This document shows, in pieces, positions 2,270-13,678 of a stretch of 53,021 nt of DNA. The stretch's first letter is position 1. Each line of letters begins with the position of its first letter. The notes under the pieces were generated by a model that was not told the DNA's origin, searched no databases, and saw nothing but the letters and a program-made list of their open reading frames with translations. Origin of the DNA: Acholeplasma sp. GTDB taxonomy: Bacteria; Bacillota_I; Bacilli_A; Acholeplasmatales; UBA5453. Both the position numbers and the translations under genes were made by a program. Where the stretch lies: positions 1-53,021 of the forward strand of contig DUNK01000002.1 in the NCBI GenBank assembly GCA_012839355.1. Direction: 5' to 3'.

Positions 2270-3133
2270 TTACACCTCATAAAACTCTTCAATAATTTTG
2301 ATTATTTTTTCTTTCGCTTCTAATGGATTACTAACATCAATTTTAACCGTATCCATCTGATTATTAAACCAAGTTTCTTGTCGCTTAGCATATCGTCTCG
2401 TAACTTTTTTTATCTCATTTACCGCTTCTTCTAAACTTATCTTTCCATCTAAATATTCATTTAACTGCTTATAACAAATTATGTTAAATGTTAAACCTTT
2501 TTCTTTTAGTTCTTTAACTTCTTCTAATAAACCCTCAGCCATCATCTCATCAACTCTAGCATTAATTCTACTATAAAGAGTTTTTCTATCTAATGTTAAT
2601 TGAATAACTAAATTATCATAAATCGGTTTGTTTTTTCCTTTTTTCTTTGGTGCTGAACCACTTAACGCTCTTAAGACTCTTCTTCTATTATTAGGATGGA
2701 TTTGCTGGCTCAACATTAAATCCTTTTCTACTAATAAGTTATACAAATCTTCATTACTATAGTTTATATACTTCTGCTCAAAACTTTCATCTCTTTTTTC
2801 ATTACTAAAATCATAATCATTAATGGCTGCCTGAATATATAAACCTGTTCCTCCAACAATAAACGGTCTTTCTATTTGTTCAATTAAGTTTCTGGCAGTG
2901 GCTTGATAACTCGCCACATCATAAGTTTTTGGTGGCGTAACAATATTAATTAAATGATGTTTTACATCTTGCATTTCTGAAGCCTTTATTTTAGCTGTAC
3001 CGATATTTAAATCTCTATATACTTGCGCAGAATCAGCAGAGATAATTTCAGCATTAAAATGTTTTGCGATAGCCACAGATATACTTGTTTTACCAATCCC
3101 TGTTGGCCCTGTAATAACTACTACTTTTTTCAT
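2270..3133 (-). CDS. miaA: tRNA dimethylallyltransferase
   Basis: Transfers a dimethylallyl group from DMAPP to N6 of A37 in tRNAs reading UNN codons. The product is the substrate of MiaB, also in this window. P-loop GPTGIGKTS (9-17), DSAQVYRDLNIGTAK (substrate loop), VGGTGLYIQAA and RRYAKRQETWF near the C-terminus are all diagnostic. The 287 residues are slightly shorter than the usual 300-315, consistent with a trimmed insertion domain. The ATG overlaps the mutL TGA stop. The order mutS-mutL-miaA is common in Bacillota. Confidence 0.95.
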   Translation of the reverse strand: MKKVVVITGPTGIGKTSISVAIAKHFNAEIISADSAQVYRDLNIGTAKIKASEMQDVKHHLINIVTPPKTYDVASYQATARNLIEQIERPFIVGGTGLYIQAAINDYDFSNEKRDESFEQKYINYSNEDLYNLLVEKDLMLSQQIHPNNRRRVLRALSGSAPKKKGKNKPIYDNLVIQLTLDRKTLYSRINARVDEMMAEGLLEEVKELKEKGLTFNIICYKQLNEYLDGKISLEEAVNEIKKVTRRYAKRQETWFNNQMDTVKIDVSNPLEAKEKIIKIIEEFYEV

Positions 3134-4815
3134 ACTATTCTCTTAAACATCTTTTCAATTTCATAATATGAGAAAAAAAGCAGTACTGGTCTCCCATGTG
3201 GACAATAATAAGGATTCTTTGTTTCTCTTAAAACACTCACCAAGTGATTAACTTCATCGTTAGACAAAGGTTTATTCGCCTTTATCGCACCTTTACAAGC
3301 TATACTTTTTGATAAATTATCTCTTAAATCTTTTAAATTAACTTCCTTATATTTTTCTAATGATTCAACAATATTTTCTATAAACAAATAAACATCATCA
3401 TCAGCCAACCAATAAGGCATTTCTGTGAGTTCATAAGTGTTATCTTTTCTCACTAATGTTAAACCAAGTTTTTTAATCGCTACAAGATTGTCAACAATAA
3501 TTTCCATTTGCGTAGGTCTAAACTCGAAACTTAATGGGATTAAGAGTCCTTTAACAGGCGATTTTTCTCCTAATTTTTCATAATAATGTTCATATCTCAC
3601 ACGTTCAGCTGCAGCGTGTTGATCGATTAAATATAAACCGTCTTCATTTTGAAAAAGTAAATAGGTCCCTGCTAATTGACCAATATAATCAAACTGTGGT
3701 AACTTTTGCATGTTTTCCACATAAATATCTTTCTTAACTTCTTCATAATCTAAATCAAGTTCATTAATCTCATAATCAAAACTGCTCATCTGGGTAATGT
3801 TTGCAAGACTATCAACTATTCTTTTTTTAACTATTTGGAACTGCTCTCTAATGCTCGTTCTAATTAAAGAGGCAATTACATATTCATTTGATAGTTTAAC
3901 TTCTCTTTTTTGCGGGTGAACATTAACATCAACAAAAGCAGGGTCAACAGTAATTTTAACAATACCAATTGGATATCTATTAACCATTAAGCGTGTATGA
4001 TAACCTTCAATTACCGCATTAGTTAAAATGAAGTTATTAATCGCTCTACCATTCAAAAAGATATAAATATTATTTCTTCTCGCTCTCGTAATATCTGGAC
4101 TACCTAACTGCGCTTCTATTTTTATATTATGAACATTTTTTTCAAAACTAATCATATTTTTACTTGAGCCCTTCCCAAAAACAAGTTCAAATAACTCTTC
4201 ATAATCACCAGTTCCAAAAGATTGTCTTAAAACTTTATTTTCATGTCTTAAACGAAAAGAAATATATGGATAAGCTAAAATAAACTCATCAACTACTTCA
4301 GTTAAATGTGATAGTTCGGTTTGTGGACTTTTCACGAACTTTAATCTTGCAGGCACATTATAAAATAAATCATTAATTATTACTTCTGTTCCTTCATTTA
4401 AAGCCGCACTTTCGCTATCCTTAAGTTTCCCACCTTCATAACTTACTAAGTATCCATCACTATTTTTAGGTCTAGATTTAATTGTCATTTTTGAAACTGA
4501 AGCTATCGCTGGAATTGCTTCACCACGAAAACCTAAACTATCAATATGTGCTAAATCAAATTCAGTTCTTATTTTGCTTGTTGCGTGACGGAAAAAGGCA
4601 GTCTTTAAATCAGCCTCACTCATTCCATACCCATTATCGATTACTTTAATTTCTTTTAATCCATTACCAAGTAAATCAATATCTATTTTTGTCGCATCAG
4701 CATCAATTGCGTTTTCAATCATTTCTTTTAAAGCATTTGCAGGTCTACTAACAACTTCTCCTGCCGCAATCATATTGCTAATTCTTTCATCTAGTTTTAT
4801 AATCTTATTTTCCAT
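3130..4815 (-). CDS. mutL: DNA mismatch repair protein MutL
   Basis: GHKL ATPase and nicking endonuclease that links MutS mismatch recognition to strand removal. The N-terminal ATPase shows EMIENAIDADAT, DNGYGM, FRHATSK and GFRGEA, and the transducer domain has the usual DVNVHPQKREV. The C-terminal domain retains the endonuclease motif DQHAAAERVRYE (DQHA-x2-E-x4-E), ACKGAIKAN and CPHGRP, so it should nick DNA, as expected in an organism lacking MutH. The linker is short, giving 561 residues against roughly 630 in B. subtilis. It begins 1 nt after the mutS stop. Confidence 0.96.
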   Translation of the reverse strand: MENKIIKLDERISNMIAAGEVVSRPANALKEMIENAIDADATKIDIDLLGNGLKEIKVIDNGYGMSEADLKTAFFRHATSKIRTEFDLAHIDSLGFRGEAIPAIASVSKMTIKSRPKNSDGYLVSYEGGKLKDSESAALNEGTEVIINDLFYNVPARLKFVKSPQTELSHLTEVVDEFILAYPYISFRLRHENKVLRQSFGTGDYEELFELVFGKGSSKNMISFEKNVHNIKIEAQLGSPDITRARRNNIYIFLNGRAINNFILTNAVIEGYHTRLMVNRYPIGIVKITVDPAFVDVNVHPQKREVKLSNEYVIASLIRTSIREQFQIVKKRIVDSLANITQMSSFDYEINELDLDYEEVKKDIYVENMQKLPQFDYIGQLAGTYLLFQNEDGLYLIDQHAAAERVRYEHYYEKLGEKSPVKGLLIPLSFEFRPTQMEIIVDNLVAIKKLGLTLVRKDNTYELTEMPYWLADDDVYLFIENIVESLEKYKEVNLKDLRDNLSKSIACKGAIKANKPLSNDEVNHLVSVLRETKNPYYCPHGRPVLLFFSYYEIEKMFKRIV

Positions 4816-4816
4816 A

Positions 4817-7327
4817 CTACTTAATCTCCTCTTGAAGTTCTTTTAAAATAAGTAGCGCTTCAATTGGCGTTAAAGAATCAATATCAAGTTCTTTAATTTT
4901 ATTTATTGCAACCTCGTTAAAGACTTCTAATTTCTTTTCTTGTTCATGAATATCATAGTTAAAAATATTTAAATCTAAATCTTTTCTCTTATCAACCTCT
5001 AAATGATCTAAAATATCTTGACTGCGATTAATTAAAGATTTAGGTAGTTTCGCAAGTGCTGCAACATTAATCCCATAAGATTTATCTGTTGGTCCTTCTT
5101 TCACCTTATATAAGAAAAGAAGTTTTCCTTTTTCTAACACTGCCGATACATGAACATTTTTAACTCTTTTTAATACCGTTTCTAGTTTAGTCAACTCGTG
5201 GTAATGAGTTGAAAACAACATCCCAGCCTTAATTGCTTCATGAACATATTCAATAATTCCTTGGGCTAAAGCCATACCATCGTATGTAGCTGTACCTCTA
5301 CCGATTTCATCAAATATTAAAAGCGAATTTGGAGTTGCGTTTCTTAACGCTTCATTTGTTTCTAACATCTCAACCATAAACGTAGATTGACCTCGCGTTA
5401 AATCATCTTGCGCACCAATTCTCGTATATATCGCATCATAAATTGGCACTTTCGCAACATCTGCTGGGACAAACGAACCCATCTGTGCCATTATTACTAT
5501 TAACGCAACAGTACGCATATATGTTGACTTACCACTCATGTTAGGACCAGTGATTAATAATATACCACCATCAATAATTGAAACATCATTCGCAATGAAA
5601 GGTTCATTATGAAAATGTTCAACTGTTGGGTGTCTACCATTAGAAATAAAAAGTTCGCGATCTTCTTTTATTTCTGGTTTAACATAATTATTTTCTAAAG
5701 AAACTAACGCCAAAGACTGCATTACATCAATATACGCAATTTGATCAGCTAACAGTTGAAGACTACCTGCGTAAGTTGCGACTTCTTTTCTTAACTCTAA
5801 AAAGAGTTCATATTCTAAATCTAAACTTTTCTCTTCGGCTTCTAAAATTAATTCTTCTTGTTCTTTTAATTCTTCGTTAATAAATCTTTCACTATTAACT
5901 AATGTTTGTTTACGAACATAACCAAACTCATCTTGAACTAAAGAAATATTGCCTTTTGTAATTTCAATATAATAACCAAAAACACGATTAAACCCCACCT
6001 TTAGGTTTTTAATTCCTGTCTTTTCTCTTTCTCTTTCTTCAAAATCATTCAGCCATTTTTCGCCTTCTTTAGTTGCTTTATAATATTTGTCTAATTTTTC
6101 ATTATAACCAAGTTTAAAAATTCCTCCATCTTTAATAGTTAATGGTGGATTTTCAGTAATAGCGTTTTTTAACTTGTTTTCTAATTCAGAATGAATATCA
6201 ATACTATTTGCATATTCACTAATCTTCTTATTATTTAAACCCTCTAACGCTTCAATAATAATAGGTAATCTGCTTAAAGATTTTTGGAGTTGTGATAAAT
6301 CTTTTGGTGTGCTATTTTCACTTGCGATTCTGGAAGAAATTCTTTTTAAATCATAAACACCTTTTAATGTTTCTTTCAACTCTTTCATCTTTCTAGAACT
6401 ATTTCTTAGCACTTCTACAAAGTTAAGGCGTGAATCAATTTTTTCTTTATTCGTTAATGGTTGAACAATCATTTTCTTTAAAAGCCTTGAACCCATCGCA
6501 GTCTCACACTTATCTAAAACTTTAAATAAACTGTGATTAACCCTTAAAGGACTTTCAGTAAGTTCTAACGCATCAACGCTTCTTTTATCTAGTTGTAAAA
6601 ACTCATTTTTATTGCTTATTTCAATTTTCGCAAATATATTATCTAAATTTTTCTCAATTTTTGTTAAGTAACTTAGTAATAGCGCTGCTGCATCAACAGA
6701 CTCAGCTTTTTGTAAATCTTTAAATAATGGATGTTTTTTAACTTCTGTTTCTTGATAAGAAATTAAAAGATTTTCATTTAAATATTTTTCTAGATATTTC
6801 AAATCCTTTGATAAAACTAACTCTTTTAAACCTAACTTATTAATTTCTTTATCTAACGCATCTCTTCTTAAATCTTCAATCAAGTAAAACTCTCCTGTTG
6901 AAACATCAGCATAGCATAAAGAAAAATACACTCTTTTTTGACCTATACTACCAATATAGTTATTATCTTTAGTCCCTAAAATACCATCATCAATAACCAT
7001 TCCAGGTGTAATTAATTTAACGACCTCTCGTTCAACTAAGCCCTTACCTGGTTCAGTGATTTGTTCGGCTATCGCAACTTTATAACCTTTATTAATTAAC
7101 TTTTCAATGTATGGTAAAACACTATGATGAGGAACACCACACATCGGTATTTTTTCTTCAACACCACCATCTCTAGCAGTTAAAACGATTTCTAACTCTC
7201 TTGCTGCAGTTACTGCATCATCAAAAAACATTTCATAGAAATCGCCTAATCTAAAAAAGACTAAGCTGTCAGCATAGTCCTTTTTAATCTCTAAATATTG
7301 TTCGATCATTGGAGTATACTTCTTCAT
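4817..7327 (-). CDS. mutS: DNA mismatch repair protein MutS
   Basis: MutS1-type mismatch sensor of 836 residues. The N-terminal mismatch-binding domain has GDFYEMFFDDA, where the Phe-x-Glu stacks at the mismatch. The ABC ATPase domain has GPNMSGKSTYMRT (Walker A), DEIGRGTATYDG (Walker B and signature) and STHYHELT. The C-terminal tail (KELDIDSLTPIEALLILKEL) is the conserved dimerisation motif found in MutS1, which supports this assignment over MutS2. It is co-transcribed with mutL and lies 25 nt downstream of the 644-residue repeat protein gene. Confidence 0.97.
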   Translation of the reverse strand: MKKYTPMIEQYLEIKKDYADSLVFFRLGDFYEMFFDDAVTAARELEIVLTARDGGVEEKIPMCGVPHHSVLPYIEKLINKGYKVAIAEQITEPGKGLVEREVVKLITPGMVIDDGILGTKDNNYIGSIGQKRVYFSLCYADVSTGEFYLIEDLRRDALDKEINKLGLKELVLSKDLKYLEKYLNENLLISYQETEVKKHPLFKDLQKAESVDAAALLLSYLTKIEKNLDNIFAKIEISNKNEFLQLDKRSVDALELTESPLRVNHSLFKVLDKCETAMGSRLLKKMIVQPLTNKEKIDSRLNFVEVLRNSSRKMKELKETLKGVYDLKRISSRIASENSTPKDLSQLQKSLSRLPIIIEALEGLNNKKISEYANSIDIHSELENKLKNAITENPPLTIKDGGIFKLGYNEKLDKYYKATKEGEKWLNDFEEREREKTGIKNLKVGFNRVFGYYIEITKGNISLVQDEFGYVRKQTLVNSERFINEELKEQEELILEAEEKSLDLEYELFLELRKEVATYAGSLQLLADQIAYIDVMQSLALVSLENNYVKPEIKEDRELFISNGRHPTVEHFHNEPFIANDVSIIDGGILLITGPNMSGKSTYMRTVALIVIMAQMGSFVPADVAKVPIYDAIYTRIGAQDDLTRGQSTFMVEMLETNEALRNATPNSLLIFDEIGRGTATYDGMALAQGIIEYVHEAIKAGMLFSTHYHELTKLETVLKRVKNVHVSAVLEKGKLLFLYKVKEGPTDKSYGINVAALAKLPKSLINRSQDILDHLEVDKRKDLDLNIFNYDIHEQEKKLEVFNEVAINKIKELDIDSLTPIEALLILKELQEEIK

Positions 7328-7352: not shown

Positions 7353-9287
7353 TTAGTATTCGTCTTTCTCTTCTTCAACAACAATTACTGGAACTGGTGG
7401 ATACTTACTCTTTTGATTTCTCTTAATTTCAGCTCGTCTCTCCATTTCAAGTTCTTTTTGTTGCTTTCTCTTCTTGAGTTTCTTGAAGTTTCTCTTACTA
7501 ATCTTTATTTCATTTGGCATTAAGATGTAAGGTTGTTTAATTGATATACCTTTTTCTTCAGCACCTTCATAGCCATATTTTTCAGAAAAATCAATATCTT
7601 CTAATTGATCGCTCTTGCCTGTGTTATAAAACGCATCTTTTAAATCTTCAACTGATTGATTAACTCTTCTAATTTCTACGATAATTTCGGATAAATCTAC
7701 ACTGCCATAAACTGCTTCTTTATCTTGTTCTTTCCAATGAGCAAATAAGATTATATCTTCGTTAACTGGTAAATTGAAATCAAATAGTTCATCAGCTAAA
7801 TACCATCCAGAAAACTTATAATCTTCTTTCTTCGGCGGTCTAATAGGATGTACTTTTTCACCTTTAATAAGTTCAACTTCTTCAGCCGACTCTCCGTCAA
7901 TAAATGTAACTGTAACTTTTTCAGGTTCAAGTTCATACCACTGAGCAACTAATTCAATGTCTTCATAAACAGGATCTTCAAAATCATATAAATTGTCTTC
8001 TAAGAACCAACCAATAAATTCATATCCTTCTTTAGTAGGGCTTTTAGGTTCTTGAACTAAATGTCCCTTTTCAATATGAACTTCATTAGATTCACCTTTC
8101 GCAATGAAATTAACTTTAACCATTTCTGGTCCTAATAATTTATATGTAGCAACTAATCTTAATTCAGCATCAACCGCTAAACCAAAATCATATAGTTTAT
8201 CGTCTAAATACCATCCCATAAACGCATAACCTTCTTTTTCTGGATCAGCTGGTTTAGCAACTTTTTCACCTTTAACAATTTCTAATGTTGTTTCTAAATC
8301 TTCATTTACAAAAGTGACTGCAACCATTTCTGGCTCTGGTTCTGGTTCCGGCTCAGGTTCTGGCTCTGGTTCTGGTTCTTGAATCATTTCATCAATCTTG
8401 TCTAAATCTGAAAGATCAAAATCTTCTCTTTCATAAACCTTATACGCTCCTGCTTGTGGTTTAAAGTATAATGCTTTTGTTTGATGAGCGTTTTTAAGTA
8501 TATACTCAATAATTTCTTCTTTCTTTAGTTCAATTGAAACTTTAATATCGTTATTAATTGCAAATCTTTGAAGTGGAATAACTGTCATTTTGTTAACTTT
8601 TTCTTCAATCTCATCAGTTAATTTACCGCGATCTCTAAGCTCATCTAAAATAATTTCAACTAATTCTTGTTTGCGTAATCTTCTTGGAACATTAACTCCA
8701 TATTTTTTGCCTATCTCTCTAACTTCAACTAAAGTCGAACATTTAAATACTACAGGTCTAAATATTTCTAGAGTTAATCCATCTATACAATTTTCTTCAT
8801 CAAAAAACAGAGGGTTTAAAACATCGTTATAAGCTATTCCATCTAACTTTTCTAATGGCGGAACATTTTCTAGACTTTTCGCTAAATCAAAAAGTTTATT
8901 GATGTTATCGCTAGATACTTTTTTCTCTAACATATAACTAACAATCCCTAACCAAAACTCTTCTTTATATTCGTCTAATAATCTTCCGTCTTCAAAAACT
9001 GGCAATAAATTAACTAACTGTGCTTCTGAAAATGTATCAAACCAACGAATACGATAAAGTAACTCATCAGTCAATTGAGTCACATGAGGTCTTTCATTAT
9101 TAACATATGGACTCAATACTTTTTTCAAAGCATCCATTCTTAATCTTCTCGGGAACATTAAACCTAAAACTGTAAAATAACTCAACATTGAATCTGCTGG
9201 TATATTTACAACCTTATCTAAAATATCGTTTATTTCGATATCTTGGTTATCAATTACAACTACGCTATCTTTTTCTAGTTTTTGCAT
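7353..9287 (-). CDS. Cytoplasmic-looking protein with three InlB B-type repeats
   Basis: Function unknown, 644 residues. There is no signal peptide or membrane segment. Residues about 1-300 are helical with two short SAP/Rho-N-like patches (187-217, PRRLRKQELVEIILDEL; 240-265, KKEEIIEYIL). A Pro-Glu dipeptide linker spans 304-320. Three repeats of about 62 residues follow (321-383, 389-450, 457-518), each with KGEKV..P..P.KEGY.F.GWYL.D.LYDF, the Listeria-Bacteroides (Flg_new/InlB B) repeat pattern. A basic, coiled C-terminus (593-628) ends in an acidic tail. InlB repeats usually sit in secreted adhesins, so their place in an apparently intracellular protein is odd. It starts the mutS operon after AGGAGG. 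Confidence 0.8.
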   Translation of the reverse strand: MQKLEKDSVVVIDNQDIEINDILDKVVNIPADSMLSYFTVLGLMFPRRLRMDALKKVLSPYVNNERPHVTQLTDELLYRIRWFDTFSEAQLVNLLPVFEDGRLLDEYKEEFWLGIVSYMLEKKVSSDNINKLFDLAKSLENVPPLEKLDGIAYNDVLNPLFFDEENCIDGLTLEIFRPVVFKCSTLVEVREIGKKYGVNVPRRLRKQELVEIILDELRDRGKLTDEIEEKVNKMTVIPLQRFAINNDIKVSIELKKEEIIEYILKNAHQTKALYFKPQAGAYKVYEREDFDLSDLDKIDEMIQEPEPEPEPEPEPEPEPEMVAVTFVNEDLETTLEIVKGEKVAKPADPEKEGYAFMGWYLDDKLYDFGLAVDAELRLVATYKLLGPEMVKVNFIAKGESNEVHIEKGHLVQEPKSPTKEGYEFIGWFLEDNLYDFEDPVYEDIELVAQWYELEPEKVTVTFIDGESAEEVELIKGEKVHPIRPPKKEDYKFSGWYLADELFDFNLPVNEDIILFAHWKEQDKEAVYGSVDLSEIIVEIRRVNQSVEDLKDAFYNTGKSDQLEDIDFSEKYGYEGAEEKGISIKQPYILMPNEIKISKRNFKKLKKRKQQKELEMERRAEIKRNQKSKYPPVPVIVVEEEKDEY

Positions 9288-9318
9288 AAAACCCTCCTAA
9301 TAAATTTCTGTGAAATGG

Positions 9319-9409: not shown

Positions 9410-9730
9410 CTAAATAATTAAAGCTTCTTCTAAAATTTCTTTAATTGTTTTGAAAAGGTTATTTATTTCTGTTTGTAAAGTTAAATAATTGCTGATAATT
9501 GGATTTTCTTCCAATCTTTTTCTTTTATCCCAATACTCTTTTTCGGCTATCTGAAGCGCTTTATGCTTTTCAGCCGCTTTTAAATTAACCATTTCTTGTT
9601 GCAATTGCTGAAGGTGAATAATTTCTTTTTTCAGTGTCGCATCTTCATTTAGTGTTTTTTCTAAACGCTTGTACTCTTTAATATAAGGATTATCCCTTAT
9701 TTCCGCAATTAATCTATCTTTACTTAACAT
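9410..9730 (-). CDS. ymcA: YlbF/YmcA-family protein (RicA/RicF-like)
   Basis: A 106-residue all-helical Com_YlbF-family protein. In B. subtilis YmcA, YlbF and YaaT form the Y-complex that directs RNase Y in mRNA maturation and affects competence and biofilm formation. The family pattern is visible in DNPYIKEYKRLEKTLNEDATLKKEI and in the C-terminal YLTLQTEINNLFKTIKEIL. Placement immediately after miaB is the same as B. subtilis ymcA, which favours YmcA over YlbF. The protein contains no cysteine, whereas the B. subtilis proteins help hold Fe-S clusters. It overlaps the miaB stop by 11 nt. Confidence 0.78.
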   Translation of the reverse strand: MLSKDRLIAEIRDNPYIKEYKRLEKTLNEDATLKKEIIHLQQLQQEMVNLKAAEKHKALQIAEKEYWDKRKRLEENPIISNYLTLQTEINNLFKTIKEILEEALII

Positions 9731-11153
9731 ATTCGCCTATTAAAAACCATGTCATTGGTTTAGTTATCTTAACATTAACAATTTTACCAATTAATGATTC
9801 ATCACCTTTAAAATTAACTAACTTATTATGTTCAGAATATCCAGATAAAACCCCATCCTTTTTCTTAGAAAAGCCGTCTACTAAAACTTTTACCGTTTTG
9901 TCTTGAAACTTTTTAGAACCCTCCAAATATCCTTTATTAACTAAATCGTTCAATCTCTTTAATCTGTTTTTAGCTTCTTTTTCAGTTATATTATTTTCAT
10001 AACTAAAAGCGGGCGTTCCTTCTCTTGGAGAAAAAATAAATGTATATGCGCCTTCAAAACCAACTTCGTTAACTATCTCTAAAGTTTCTAAAAAGTCTTC
10101 TTCGGTTTCTGTTGGAAATGCAACAATTATATCTGTTGTAATAGAGATATCGCTTCTTGCATCTTTTAACTTTCTAATTACTTCTAAATATCTTTCTTTT
10201 GTATAACCACGATTCATCTTCTTTAAAACTTTATTAGAACCAGACTGAAGTGGCAAATGCACATAAGGCATTACATGTTTAGATGTTCTAAAAACTTCAA
10301 TTGTTTTATCATCAAAATCTCTTGGATGAGATGTCGTAAAACGGATTCTTTCAATGCCCGTTTTATCAAGATCTAATAATAAATCACTGAAGGTATAATC
10401 TCCTTCTAAATCTTTTCCATATGCATTTACATTTTGACCTAGTAGAGTTACTTCTTTATATCCTCTTTCCACAAGATGTTTAACTTCAGCAATGATATCA
10501 TCTTTTAATCTTGACCTTTCTTTTCCTCTTGTATAAGGAACAATACAATATGTGCAAAACTCATCACATCCGTGCGTGATATGAACCCACGCTTTGTGAG
10601 TTTGTTCGCGTTTTTTTGGTAAGTTTTCAATGATTGAACCTTCGTACGAATAAGCTTCAATAACTCTTTTCTCGCCTTCGCTTAATCTATAGATATATTC
10701 AGGCAACTTGTAAAAGTTATGTGTCCCATAAACAAGACTAACATATGGATATTCATCTAAAATTTTTTCAACTACTCTTTCTTCTTGCGGCATACAGCCA
10801 AAAACACCTAATACTAAATTAGGTTTATCTTTTTTATAAATTTTTAATCTGCCTAATTCGCCCCAAATTCTATTTTCAGCGTTTTCTCTAATTGCACATG
10901 TATTAAGTAAAATTAAATCTGCATCAACTTCATCTTCTGCTAAAGTAAATCCTATCTTTTCTAAAATACCAGCGACTATTTCTGAATCAGCTTCATTAGC
11001 CTGACAACCATATGTTTGGATTCTATATTTCTTTCCTTCACCCAAACTTTTATATTTCTCATCCAAAATAAACTCTTTATACTCAATGTCGCTCTTTCTC
11101 ATCCGTGCTTCTTTTAAGTTCGGCTTCAAATATTTCTCTAACTTTTTATCCAT
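9720..11153 (-). CDS. miaB: tRNA-2-methylthio-N6-dimethylallyladenosine synthase
   Basis: Radical-SAM methylthiotransferase that converts i6A37, made by MiaA, to ms2i6A37. The N-terminal UPF0004 domain has Cys50, Cys86 and Cys120 (QTYGCQANEAD, NTCAIRENAENR, FGCMPQEE) for the auxiliary Fe-S cluster. The radical-SAM triad is Cys196, Cys200 and Cys203 (HGCDEFCTYCIVPYTRG). A TRAM domain closes the 477 residues. NENR-type and YTRGKERSR signatures favour MiaB over MtaB or RimO. It lies between ymdB and ymcA, as in B. subtilis. Confidence 0.96.
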   Translation of the reverse strand: MDKKLEKYLKPNLKEARMRKSDIEYKEFILDEKYKSLGEGKKYRIQTYGCQANEADSEIVAGILEKIGFTLAEDEVDADLILLNTCAIRENAENRIWGELGRLKIYKKDKPNLVLGVFGCMPQEERVVEKILDEYPYVSLVYGTHNFYKLPEYIYRLSEGEKRVIEAYSYEGSIIENLPKKREQTHKAWVHITHGCDEFCTYCIVPYTRGKERSRLKDDIIAEVKHLVERGYKEVTLLGQNVNAYGKDLEGDYTFSDLLLDLDKTGIERIRFTTSHPRDFDDKTIEVFRTSKHVMPYVHLPLQSGSNKVLKKMNRGYTKERYLEVIRKLKDARSDISITTDIIVAFPTETEEDFLETLEIVNEVGFEGAYTFIFSPREGTPAFSYENNITEKEAKNRLKRLNDLVNKGYLEGSKKFQDKTVKVLVDGFSKKKDGVLSGYSEHNKLVNFKGDESLIGKIVNVKITKPMTWFLIGEYVK

Positions 11154-11170: not shown

Positions 11171-11926
11171 CTATTCTTCTAAATGGATTCTTTCAATTGT
11201 TTTTGCATCAAAATCCATAATAACTGCATTTAGTTGGTTTTTCGTTTCAGCAACTTTATTTGGCCTTGTATGACCGCTTATAAATCTCTTTATAACAATA
11301 TCTTTATCAACTCCAATAATCCCATCAAGTGGTCCAGTCATACCCACATCAGTAATATAAATAGTCCCGTTTGGCAATATTCTTTCATCGGCTGTTTGCA
11401 CATGTGTATGCGTACCAACAATCGCTGTAACTCTACCATCTAAATAATGAGCAAAAGAAATTTTTTCGCTTGTTGCTTCAGCGTGAAAATCAATTAAAAT
11501 ATAATCAGCTTCAACTTCGCTAATTATTTTATCAGCAACTAAAAAAGGGTTTTCTAAATTTGAGTCCAAGTAAGTTCTTCCAAGCAAATTGATAACTAGT
11601 AACTTTTTGTCATTATACCTAATTAAATCATAACCCTTGCCAGGCGCATCATAATAATTAGCCGGTCTAATAATATGGGCATTTTCAATAAAATCTTTTA
11701 ACTTTGGATTGCCCCAAACATGATTGCCCATCGTAATAGTTGCAACACCAGATTTCATTAATTCTAAATAATAATCTTCAGTGATGCTTCTACCATTATT
11801 AGCACTGTTTTCAGCATTTACCACAATAATATTTGGCTTATATTCTTGTTTAAGTTTTGGAAGTTGTTCACTTAAATATTTTCTTCCTGGCGCACCATAA
11901 ACATCACCAATAAAAAGTACTCTCAT
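11171..11926 (-). CDS. ymdB: YmdB-family metallophosphoesterase
   Basis: Calcineurin-like phosphoesterase; in B. subtilis YmdB hydrolyses 2',3'-cyclic nucleotides and influences biofilm and motility decisions, probably with RNase Y. Metal ligands appear in FIGDVYGAPGRKYL (6-19), NAENSANNGRSI, MGNHVWG, DFHAEATSEK and GTHTHVQTAD. The 251-residue length is close to the family's 260-265. It is separated from rny by a hairpin at 11957-11977, so its level may depend on read-through. Confidence 0.93.
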   Translation of the reverse strand: MRVLFIGDVYGAPGRKYLSEQLPKLKQEYKPNIIVVNAENSANNGRSITEDYYLELMKSGVATITMGNHVWGNPKLKDFIENAHIIRPANYYDAPGKGYDLIRYNDKKLLVINLLGRTYLDSNLENPFLVADKIISEVEADYILIDFHAEATSEKISFAHYLDGRVTAIVGTHTHVQTADERILPNGTIYITDVGMTGPLDGIIGVDKDIVIKRFISGHTRPNKVAETKNQLNAVIMDFDAKTIERIHLEE

Positions 11927-11983: not shown

Positions 11984-13549
11984 TTATTTTGCAACATCTG
12001 TCGCTCTTGTTTCTCTAATTACAGTAACTTTAATTGTTCCTGGATATTGAAGAGTTGCTTCAATTTCTTCTTTAATCTGTCTTGCAATTTTGAATGTAGT
12101 TTGATCATCAATTTTTTCAGGTTGAACAACTACTCTTATTTCTCTACCTGCTTGAATCGCATAAGCTTTATCTACACCTTCAACGTTTGTCGCAACACCT
12201 TCAAGTGCTTCTAAACGTTTTAAATAATTCTCAACAGACTCACTTCTTGCGCCTGGTCTAGCAGCACTTACAGCATCTGCTGCTGCTACTAGTGCAGCAA
12301 TAATTGTTTTTGGTTCCTTATCACCATGGTGTGATGCTATCGCATCAATAACTTCTTTCGGTTCTTTATAACGTCTAACTAAGTCAACACCAATATCAAC
12401 ATGTGAACCTTCCACCTCATGGTCAACAGCTTTTCCAATGTCATGGAATAGTCCTGCACGTCTTGCAAGCGTCTCGTTTTGACCAAGTTCAGCAGCTAGC
12501 TTACCAGCTAAAAACGCTACTTCAATTGAATGTCTTAAAACATTTTGACCATAACTAGTTCTAAAGTTTAACCTTCCTAATAATTTAATTAAATCAGGAT
12601 GAACCTTACCTACGTTAGCTTCAAAAACTGCGTTTTCGCCAACTTCTCTAATAAATGTATCAACTTCTGCCTGTGAACGAATAACTACTTCTTCAATTCT
12701 ACCTGGGTGAATTCTTCCATCATCTACAAGAGATACTAACGCTCTTCTAGCAACCTCTCTACGAATCGGATCAAAACCAGATAAAACTACTGCCTCAGGT
12801 GTATCATCAATAATTAAATCTACACCAGTTAACGCCTCGAAAGTTCTAATATTTCTACCTTCTCTTCCGATAACTCTGCCTTTCATTTCTTCACTCGGCA
12901 AATCAACTACACTTACTGTTCTTTCTGCTGTGATGTCACTCGCGTATTTTTGAATTGCTAAAGTTAATAATTCCTTAGCTTTCATATCCGCTTCATTCAT
13001 TGCTTCTTCTTCTCTATCTTTTAAGTAAGCAGTTATTTCATCAGACATTGCTTCTTCAACATTTTTCATAATAATTTCGCGAGCTTGTTCAACACTCATT
13101 CCAGATATTTCTACAAGTCTCTGTTCTTGTTCAACTAATAATTCTTCCACTTTGCTGTTTAGAATATCAATTTCAGCCTTTTTCTCATCTAATTTTAGTT
13201 CTTTTAATGCTAAATTATCTTCTCTTTTATCTAAGTTATTAGAACGATTGTTTAGCATTTCTTCACGTCTGGCTAATCTTTCTTCAGAAGCTACAACGTT
13301 GGCTCTTCTTTCTTTTATATCTCTTTCAAAATCAGCCTTTTGATTGTGGATTTCTTGTTTAGCTTCTAAAATAATTTGTTTGCGATAATCATCGGCTTCT
13401 TTTTTGCCATCTTCAACAATTTTTTTAGCTTGTTCTCTGCTTTTCGTTAAAGTTTCTTCATGATGTTTTACACGAATTAAATATCCAAATAGGATACCTA
13501 AAATTAGTGTCAGCAAAATGGAGACAATTAGGGCTACTGCATCTCCCAT
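11984..13549 (-). CDS. rny: Ribonuclease Y
   Basis: Membrane-anchored endoribonuclease that starts bulk mRNA decay in Bacillota. An N-terminal membrane segment (about 5-25) is followed by a long charged coiled coil (about 30-200). A KH domain follows ([21 protein letters not shown]), then an HD domain with [14 protein letters not shown] and [11 protein letters not shown] supplying metal ligands. The 521 residues match B. subtilis Rny (520). The ATG follows GGAGG. Transcription starts from an extended -10 promoter at 13649-13678, giving a leader of about 95 nt with a small ATGGAT/ATCCAT hairpin. Confidence 0.97.
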
Positions 13550-13648: not shown

Positions 13649-13678
13649 ATTATACCATTTTTATGACATCTTAGTCAA
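13649..13678 (-). promoter_or_regulatory. Promoter of rny
   Basis: Minus-strand TTGACT (13673-13678), 18-nt spacer, TATAAT (13649-13654) with TGG just before it, an extended -10. This is one of the best sigma-A matches in the window. Confidence 0.8.

Follow-up and report, generated by a model that had tools for sequence, protein, structure and literature searches.

An uncharacterised protein family with a conserved helical head in the rny–mutS operon of Acholeplasma-like bacteria

In Bacillus subtilis, CotE lies between ymcA and mutS in an operon equivalent to the one described here, in which that position is held by a gene that we call X. The CotE family is not among the Pfam matches of X at E ≤ 1. 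Two other described systems bear on the X protein or on its neighbours. The B. subtilis Y-complex binds at the membrane in an RNA-dependent manner, YaaT being its proposed membrane anchor (PMC8945944), and the helix-extension-helix (HeH) proteins Src1 and MAN1 reside in the inner nuclear membrane (PMC4810098). We analysed X in a stretch of 53,021 nucleotides from Acholeplasma sp. (contig DUNK01000002.1, hereafter the window) and compared it with its relatives in other genomes.

Gene X and its operon

Gene X is an inner gene of a series read from the minus strand in the order rny-ymdB-miaB-ylbF-X-mutS-mutL:

3130..4815 (-): mutL
4817..7327 (-): mutS (MutS1)
7353..9287 (-): gene X, 644 aa, with an HeH head, a Pro-Glu linker, three InlB repeats and a helical basic tail
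9292..9298 (-): AGGAGGG ribosome-binding site of gene X
9410..9730 (-): ylbF/ymcA-like gene (Com_YlbF, Pfam)
9720..11153 (-): miaB (Radical SAM, UPF0004 and TRAM domains)
11171..11926 (-): ymdB-like gene, named after its presumed counterpart in the B. subtilis operon (translation; conserved neighbour)
11984..13549 (-): rny, which we take from its translation to encode RNase Y (conserved neighbour)
13649..13678 (-): TTGACT-18-TATAAT with TG, the region's best promoter-like site, upstream of rny (consensus match only)

A preliminary description of this DNA had placed X at the head of a mutS operon. That placement does not hold: four genes of the same strand (ylbF, miaB, ymdB and rny) precede X, and the region's best promoter-like match stands in front of rny, with none above chance between ylbF and X; taken overall, such sites occur no more often than in shuffled sequences.

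The encoded protein is laid out as follows:

8463..9287 (-): conserved helical head, residues 1-275 (homologue alignments; AlphaFold mean pLDDT 86)
9102..9197 (-): HeH motif 1, residues 31-62 (model helices 31-41 and 47-62; hhalign)
8631..8732 (-): HeH motif 2, a Rho_N motif, residues 186-219 (Pfam PF07498; conservation)
8490..8582 (-): HeH motif 3, residues 236-266, with conserved K256 (model; hhalign)
8328..8384 (-): (Pro-Glu)n linker, about residues 302-320 (sequence; Trypan_PARP low-complexity match)
8124..8327 (-): InlB B/Flg_new repeat 1, residues 321-388
7920..8123 (-): InlB B/Flg_new repeat 2, residues 389-456
7716..7919 (-): InlB B/Flg_new repeat 3, residues 457-524
7620..7691 (-): post-repeat helix, residues 533-556; a similar helix precedes the transmembrane (TM) segment of relatives (model; relatives' sequences)
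7404..7496 (-): basic helix, residues 598-628, at the position of the basic juxtamembrane and TM segments of relatives, the TM being absent here

Pfam recovered both kinds of module that the preliminary description had read by eye: Flg_new in three stretches behind the Pro-Glu linker, far above the cut-off (E 5.2e-29), and, within the helical N-terminal half described as bearing SAP/Rho-N-like patches, Rho_N PF07498 at residues 185-218 (E 7.1e-8, 32.7 bits for a cut-off of 24.9), where the AlphaFold model places one of three HeH units. The lack of an export signal was likewise borne out. Window X has neither a signal peptide nor a lipobox at its conserved start; its relatives share the same aligned Met start, each with its own strong ribosome-binding site, and no in-frame signal peptide was found upstream of that start in the aligned relatives of the window protein. 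Near the N-terminus a single stretch is hydrophobic, SMLSYFTVLGLM (hydropathy 1.82), and the AlphaFold model shows it as the first of the conserved HeH helices. A misplaced start hiding a signal peptide is ruled out by the ribosome-binding site, the aligned Met and the signal-free relatives, and on these sequence grounds the start assignment is correct. The contrast drawn earlier between X and surface proteins also stands, since most of the other own-genome Flg_new proteins that we looked at have lipoprotein- or signal-peptide-like N-termini, unlike X. Stretches L155-L164 of this genome, whose assembly is smaller than 1 Mb, encode many Flg_new repeat proteins, mostly with such starts.

A conserved head with three predicted HeH motifs

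X is a member of an uncharacterised protein family in Acholeplasma-like bacteria. A query with the whole protein found matches in 57 of the 61 nearest genomes, some of them to the repeats only, and a profile of the head matched 101 of the 395 genomes sampled from the class, counts that depend on the genomes sampled and on contig ends. Among the matches listed for a phylum-wide sample, all lie within the same class as the window; the tally of that sample (70/392) overstates the family, as hits with E between 1e-3 and 1e-5, present in many genomes, are short matches to HeH3. The two weak secondary profile hits that we inspected are uS2 ribosomal proteins with C-terminal Rho_N tails. Named relatives, some of which duplicate entries of the main genome sample, belong to the Acholeplasmataceae/Acholeplasmatales (Paracholeplasma, Haploplasma, Peloplasma, Acholeplasma), together with one Anaeroplasmataceae bin, and the head of window X is up to 55% identical to that of its nearest relative. 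No description of the family was found in open PMC papers. A protein of a core operon (RNase Y, MiaB, MutS) is kept across Acholeplasmatales and related lineages without a Pfam or NCBIfam family model.

Apart from one Rho_N segment, the head is left without a Pfam or NCBIfam model. Rho_N was matched at E ≤ 1 by all 24 head sequences scanned with Pfam, the HeH/LEM model gave a weak match in 12 of the 24, and Ish1, a model named for nuclear-envelope organisation, matched one family member. X is no Rho: it scores 15.4 bits against the Rho equivalog TIGR00767, whose cut-off is 509, and has no Rho ATPase core. A PDB sequence search with the head profile returned no match. A match to a PHROG endonuclease VII family (residues 225-265, E 7.5e-7) covers HeH3 only, and we did not take it as an indication of function.

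The AlphaFold model of the head (mean pLDDT 86, pTM 0.79) contains three helix-extension-helix units of the HeH/Rho_N/SAP type, at residues 31-62, 186-219 and 236-266, and finds no fold match at E ≤ 0.001 in PDB or viral libraries. Profile comparisons by hhalign, all E-values being single-pair values, related HeH3 to HeH2 (E 3e-8) and HeH1 to HeH2 (E 1.8e-5), HeH1 to HeH3 weakly (E 0.003), and HeH3 to the Rho_N tails of uS2 (E 3.5e-10), control segments giving E ≥ 0.013. Five basic or proline positions, K195, P201, R203 and K206 in HeH2 and K256 in HeH3, are conserved in 87-100% of diverse relatives. Computation thus shows a conserved head with a predicted HeH fold and conserved basic residues.

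Beside tsf, two loci (L179 1367-2473(-) and L181 1320-2366(-)) encode a uS2 whose Lys/Pro-rich linker leads to a Rho_N/HeH domain at the C-terminus that exceeds the Pfam cut-off; short profile hits suggest such tails in further genomes of the class, L179 and L181 being the ones checked.

A C-terminal anchor and a variable linker

The main feature of the family, overlooked in the preliminary description, is a C-terminal membrane anchor that the window's clade has lost. Judged by a hydropathy scan, 76 of 86 relatives carry a TM-like segment C-terminal to the head; the ten rows without one include L148, which is truncated where its contig stops. The layout common to the family is therefore a head followed by a variable linker and a C-terminal TM, down to the shortest members, those of family f16 at about 330 aa, in which the head and a short linker lead to a TM at the extreme C-terminus. 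In 70 of the 76 TM-bearing rows, positive charge is higher over the 15 residues that precede the last TM than over the 15 that follow, and from this positive-inside bias the head is predicted to be cytosolic in these relatives. Window X has no TM, its best hydropathy being 0.95. On a tree built from heads only, TM presence or absence requires 5 changes, one of them owed to the contig-truncated L148; the window groups with the TM-less L031, L032, L033 and L034 (support 86), and the TM-bearing L035, L036, L037 and L041 branch just outside this group. The loss, in the window's clade, of a predicted ancestral TM anchor is shown by this computation. Homologues of the Acholeplasma laidlawii group (L074, L076, L077, L078 and L080) have about four hydrophobic segments, with loop charges that misfit a simple topology.

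The head is conserved in relatives and the InlB repeats are not, so that the architecture first described is no conserved feature: Flg_new matches occur in 4 of 87 full-length rows, namely the window, its duplicate L001, L022 and L055. In G001/L031, the nearest relative and a member of the same genus, the linker is plain Pro-Glu without InlB repeats. The window repeats most resemble a repeat of an own-genome protein, L160 (49-54% identity in a comparison that covered selected stretches of the genome), and lipoproteins of the sister genome; L160 is cut at its 5' end, so that any export signal would fall outside the sequence read. The repeats of L022 and L055 are not among the best matches of the window repeats, and InlB repeats of a different subtype occur in another branch of the family. 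These likenesses point to separate gains of InlB repeats by the window and L022/L055 lineages, and the window repeats probably came from the repeat pool of their own genome.

Other inserts are found at the same place. In Acholeplasma sp. OttesenSCG-928-E16 (L071 6001-8730(+)), five Big_3 Ig-like domains lie between the head and the TM (E 2.3e-50). An FN3-looking linker stretch was recognised by eye in L120 4341-6890(-), whose Ig-like match in Pfam is weak (E 0.067). Surface-type modules have therefore entered the X linker in at least three lineages. InlB and Ig-like repeats are hence no proof of surface exposure. In the full-length model, the InlB region has pLDDT <50; few relatives align there, which makes the value uninformative on folding. 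The InlB repeats of window X may equally well be neutral.

Proposed role and alternatives

We propose, at about even confidence, that X represents a type of membrane-tethered nucleic-acid-binding protein with a triple-HeH head, an acidic/Pro-rich spacer and, ancestrally, a TM anchor. The ancestral protein would have a cytosolic triple-HeH head joined through the spacer to a C-terminal TM; the head would hold nucleic acid (RNA or DNA) or nucleoprotein near the inner face of the membrane, at a reach set by the spacer, and InlB repeats might act inside the cell as stiff spacer beads. The window form, without a TM, could be soluble, or its basic tail or a partner could keep it at the membrane. Nucleic-acid binding is suggested by the motifs of the head and tethering by the layout of the family. 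Against this proposal, HeH/SAP/LEM motifs can also bind proteins, window X itself has no anchor, A. laidlawii-group members have their several hydrophobic segments, and no fold match in PDB or viral libraries points to a function. The nucleic-acid or ribosome-associated scaffold suggested in the preliminary description stays plausible, on the intracellular location and the SAP/Rho_N-like segments. If X does tether nucleic acid to the membrane, it offers a testable handle on membrane-side RNA decay or nucleoid organisation in wall-less bacteria.

The gene's neighbourhood bears on what might be tethered. Among 94 loci, mutS follows X at less than 400 nt in 71, several of the others being limited by contig ends, and miaB, ylbF, ymdB or rny lies close upstream of X in 71; neighbour absences are partly due to contig ends (L052, L071, L148). 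X is not linked to mutS in f19, f7 and f9. Family f23 has rny-miaB-X and then a gene reading as miaA, X standing next to miaB where its surroundings were read, and MutS1 and MutL over cut-off are found in none of the five X-bearing genomes (drafts, 85-97% complete, consistent in all five). Genus g20 (genomes of 0.6-0.9 Mb), which we infer to be Phytoplasma, is without X, MutS1, MutL, YlbF and PSP1. Homologues for which the stretch read holds no mutS-operon gene occur in L116, L117, L118, L129, L151-L153, L057, L072 and L075; several genomes with such off-operon homologues also carry an operon copy.

It is possible, though on balance unlikely, that X serves RNase Y and the Y-complex as a membrane partner whose Rho_N/HeH head captures RNA or ribosomes beside the membrane-bound RNase Y. 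X sits in the rny-ymdB-miaB-ylbF block, the MutS-less f23 genomes keep Com_YlbF (4/5) and PSP1/RicT (3/5), both secondary profile hits inspected are uS2 with Rho_N, and the B. subtilis complex binds the membrane RNA-dependently (PMC8945944). That complex, however, has a proposed membrane anchor in YaaT (PMC8945944), Com_YlbF was not detected in the X-bearing f24, f7, f19 and f9 genomes, RicT is also present in genomes without X, and operon position alone is a weak argument.

We consider it doubtful that X is a nucleoid tether, holding chromosomal DNA at the membrane by analogy with the eukaryotic HeH/LEM proteins Src1 and MAN1 of the inner nuclear membrane (PMC4810098). Its HeH motifs, the anchor of most relatives and the HeH/LEM and Ish1 matches would fit, and wall-less lineages may need such a tether; but it is Rho_N, and neither SAP nor LEM, that X matches best in Pfam, and the neighbours of X are mostly RNA genes.

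A mismatch-repair accessory recruiting MutS/MutL, in line with the functional link raised in the preliminary description, is improbable. In most loci relatives do keep X immediately 5' of mutS, separated by a short gap, as that description had thought worth checking, and g20 is without X, MutS1 and MutL together. Yet five f23 genomes keep X without MutS1/MutL over cut-off and X is unlinked to mutS in f19, f7 and f9, so that the link is positional; the loss of X in g20 would reflect general reduction, because YlbF and PSP1 are gone as well. RNA handling, suggested by the rny, ylbF and miaB neighbours, would be a likelier link than mismatch repair.

A surface protein with an overlooked export signal, as the InlB repeats and the lipoprotein-like starts of most own-genome Flg_new proteins might suggest, is highly improbable given a conserved start with its ribosome-binding site and no signal peptide, and the positive-inside bias that places the head of TM-bearing relatives in the cytosol.

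Our proposal of a membrane-tethered nucleic-acid-binding protein sets X beside several known systems. Rho_N (PF07498) and the HeH/SAP/LEM motifs are matched by X above the Pfam cut-off at residues 185-218 and in three HeH forms with conserved basic residues, but X sets these motifs in a 275-aa helical head whose remainder has no Pfam model, and no Rho ATPase accompanies them. The Flg_new/List_Bact_rpt InlB B repeat (PF09479) is present in window X in three clear copies; it is normally found on exported proteins, whereas window X has no signal peptide and its repeats are not conserved in the family. The uS2 Rho_N tail of related genomes carries an HeH motif closely similar to HeH3, but as a single motif on a ribosomal protein without a membrane anchor. 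More speculatively, and with little confidence, X may represent, in Bacilli of a wall-less lineage, a conserved bacterial counterpart of the nuclear HeH tethers, into whose cytosolic linker several lineages would separately have inserted extracellular adhesin-type modules (InlB repeats, Big_3 domains) as rigid spacers. X is bacterial and mostly has a single C-terminal TM, absent from the window protein, but by analogy most of its relatives would resemble Src1/Heh1 and MAN1 in joining HeH motifs to a membrane anchor.
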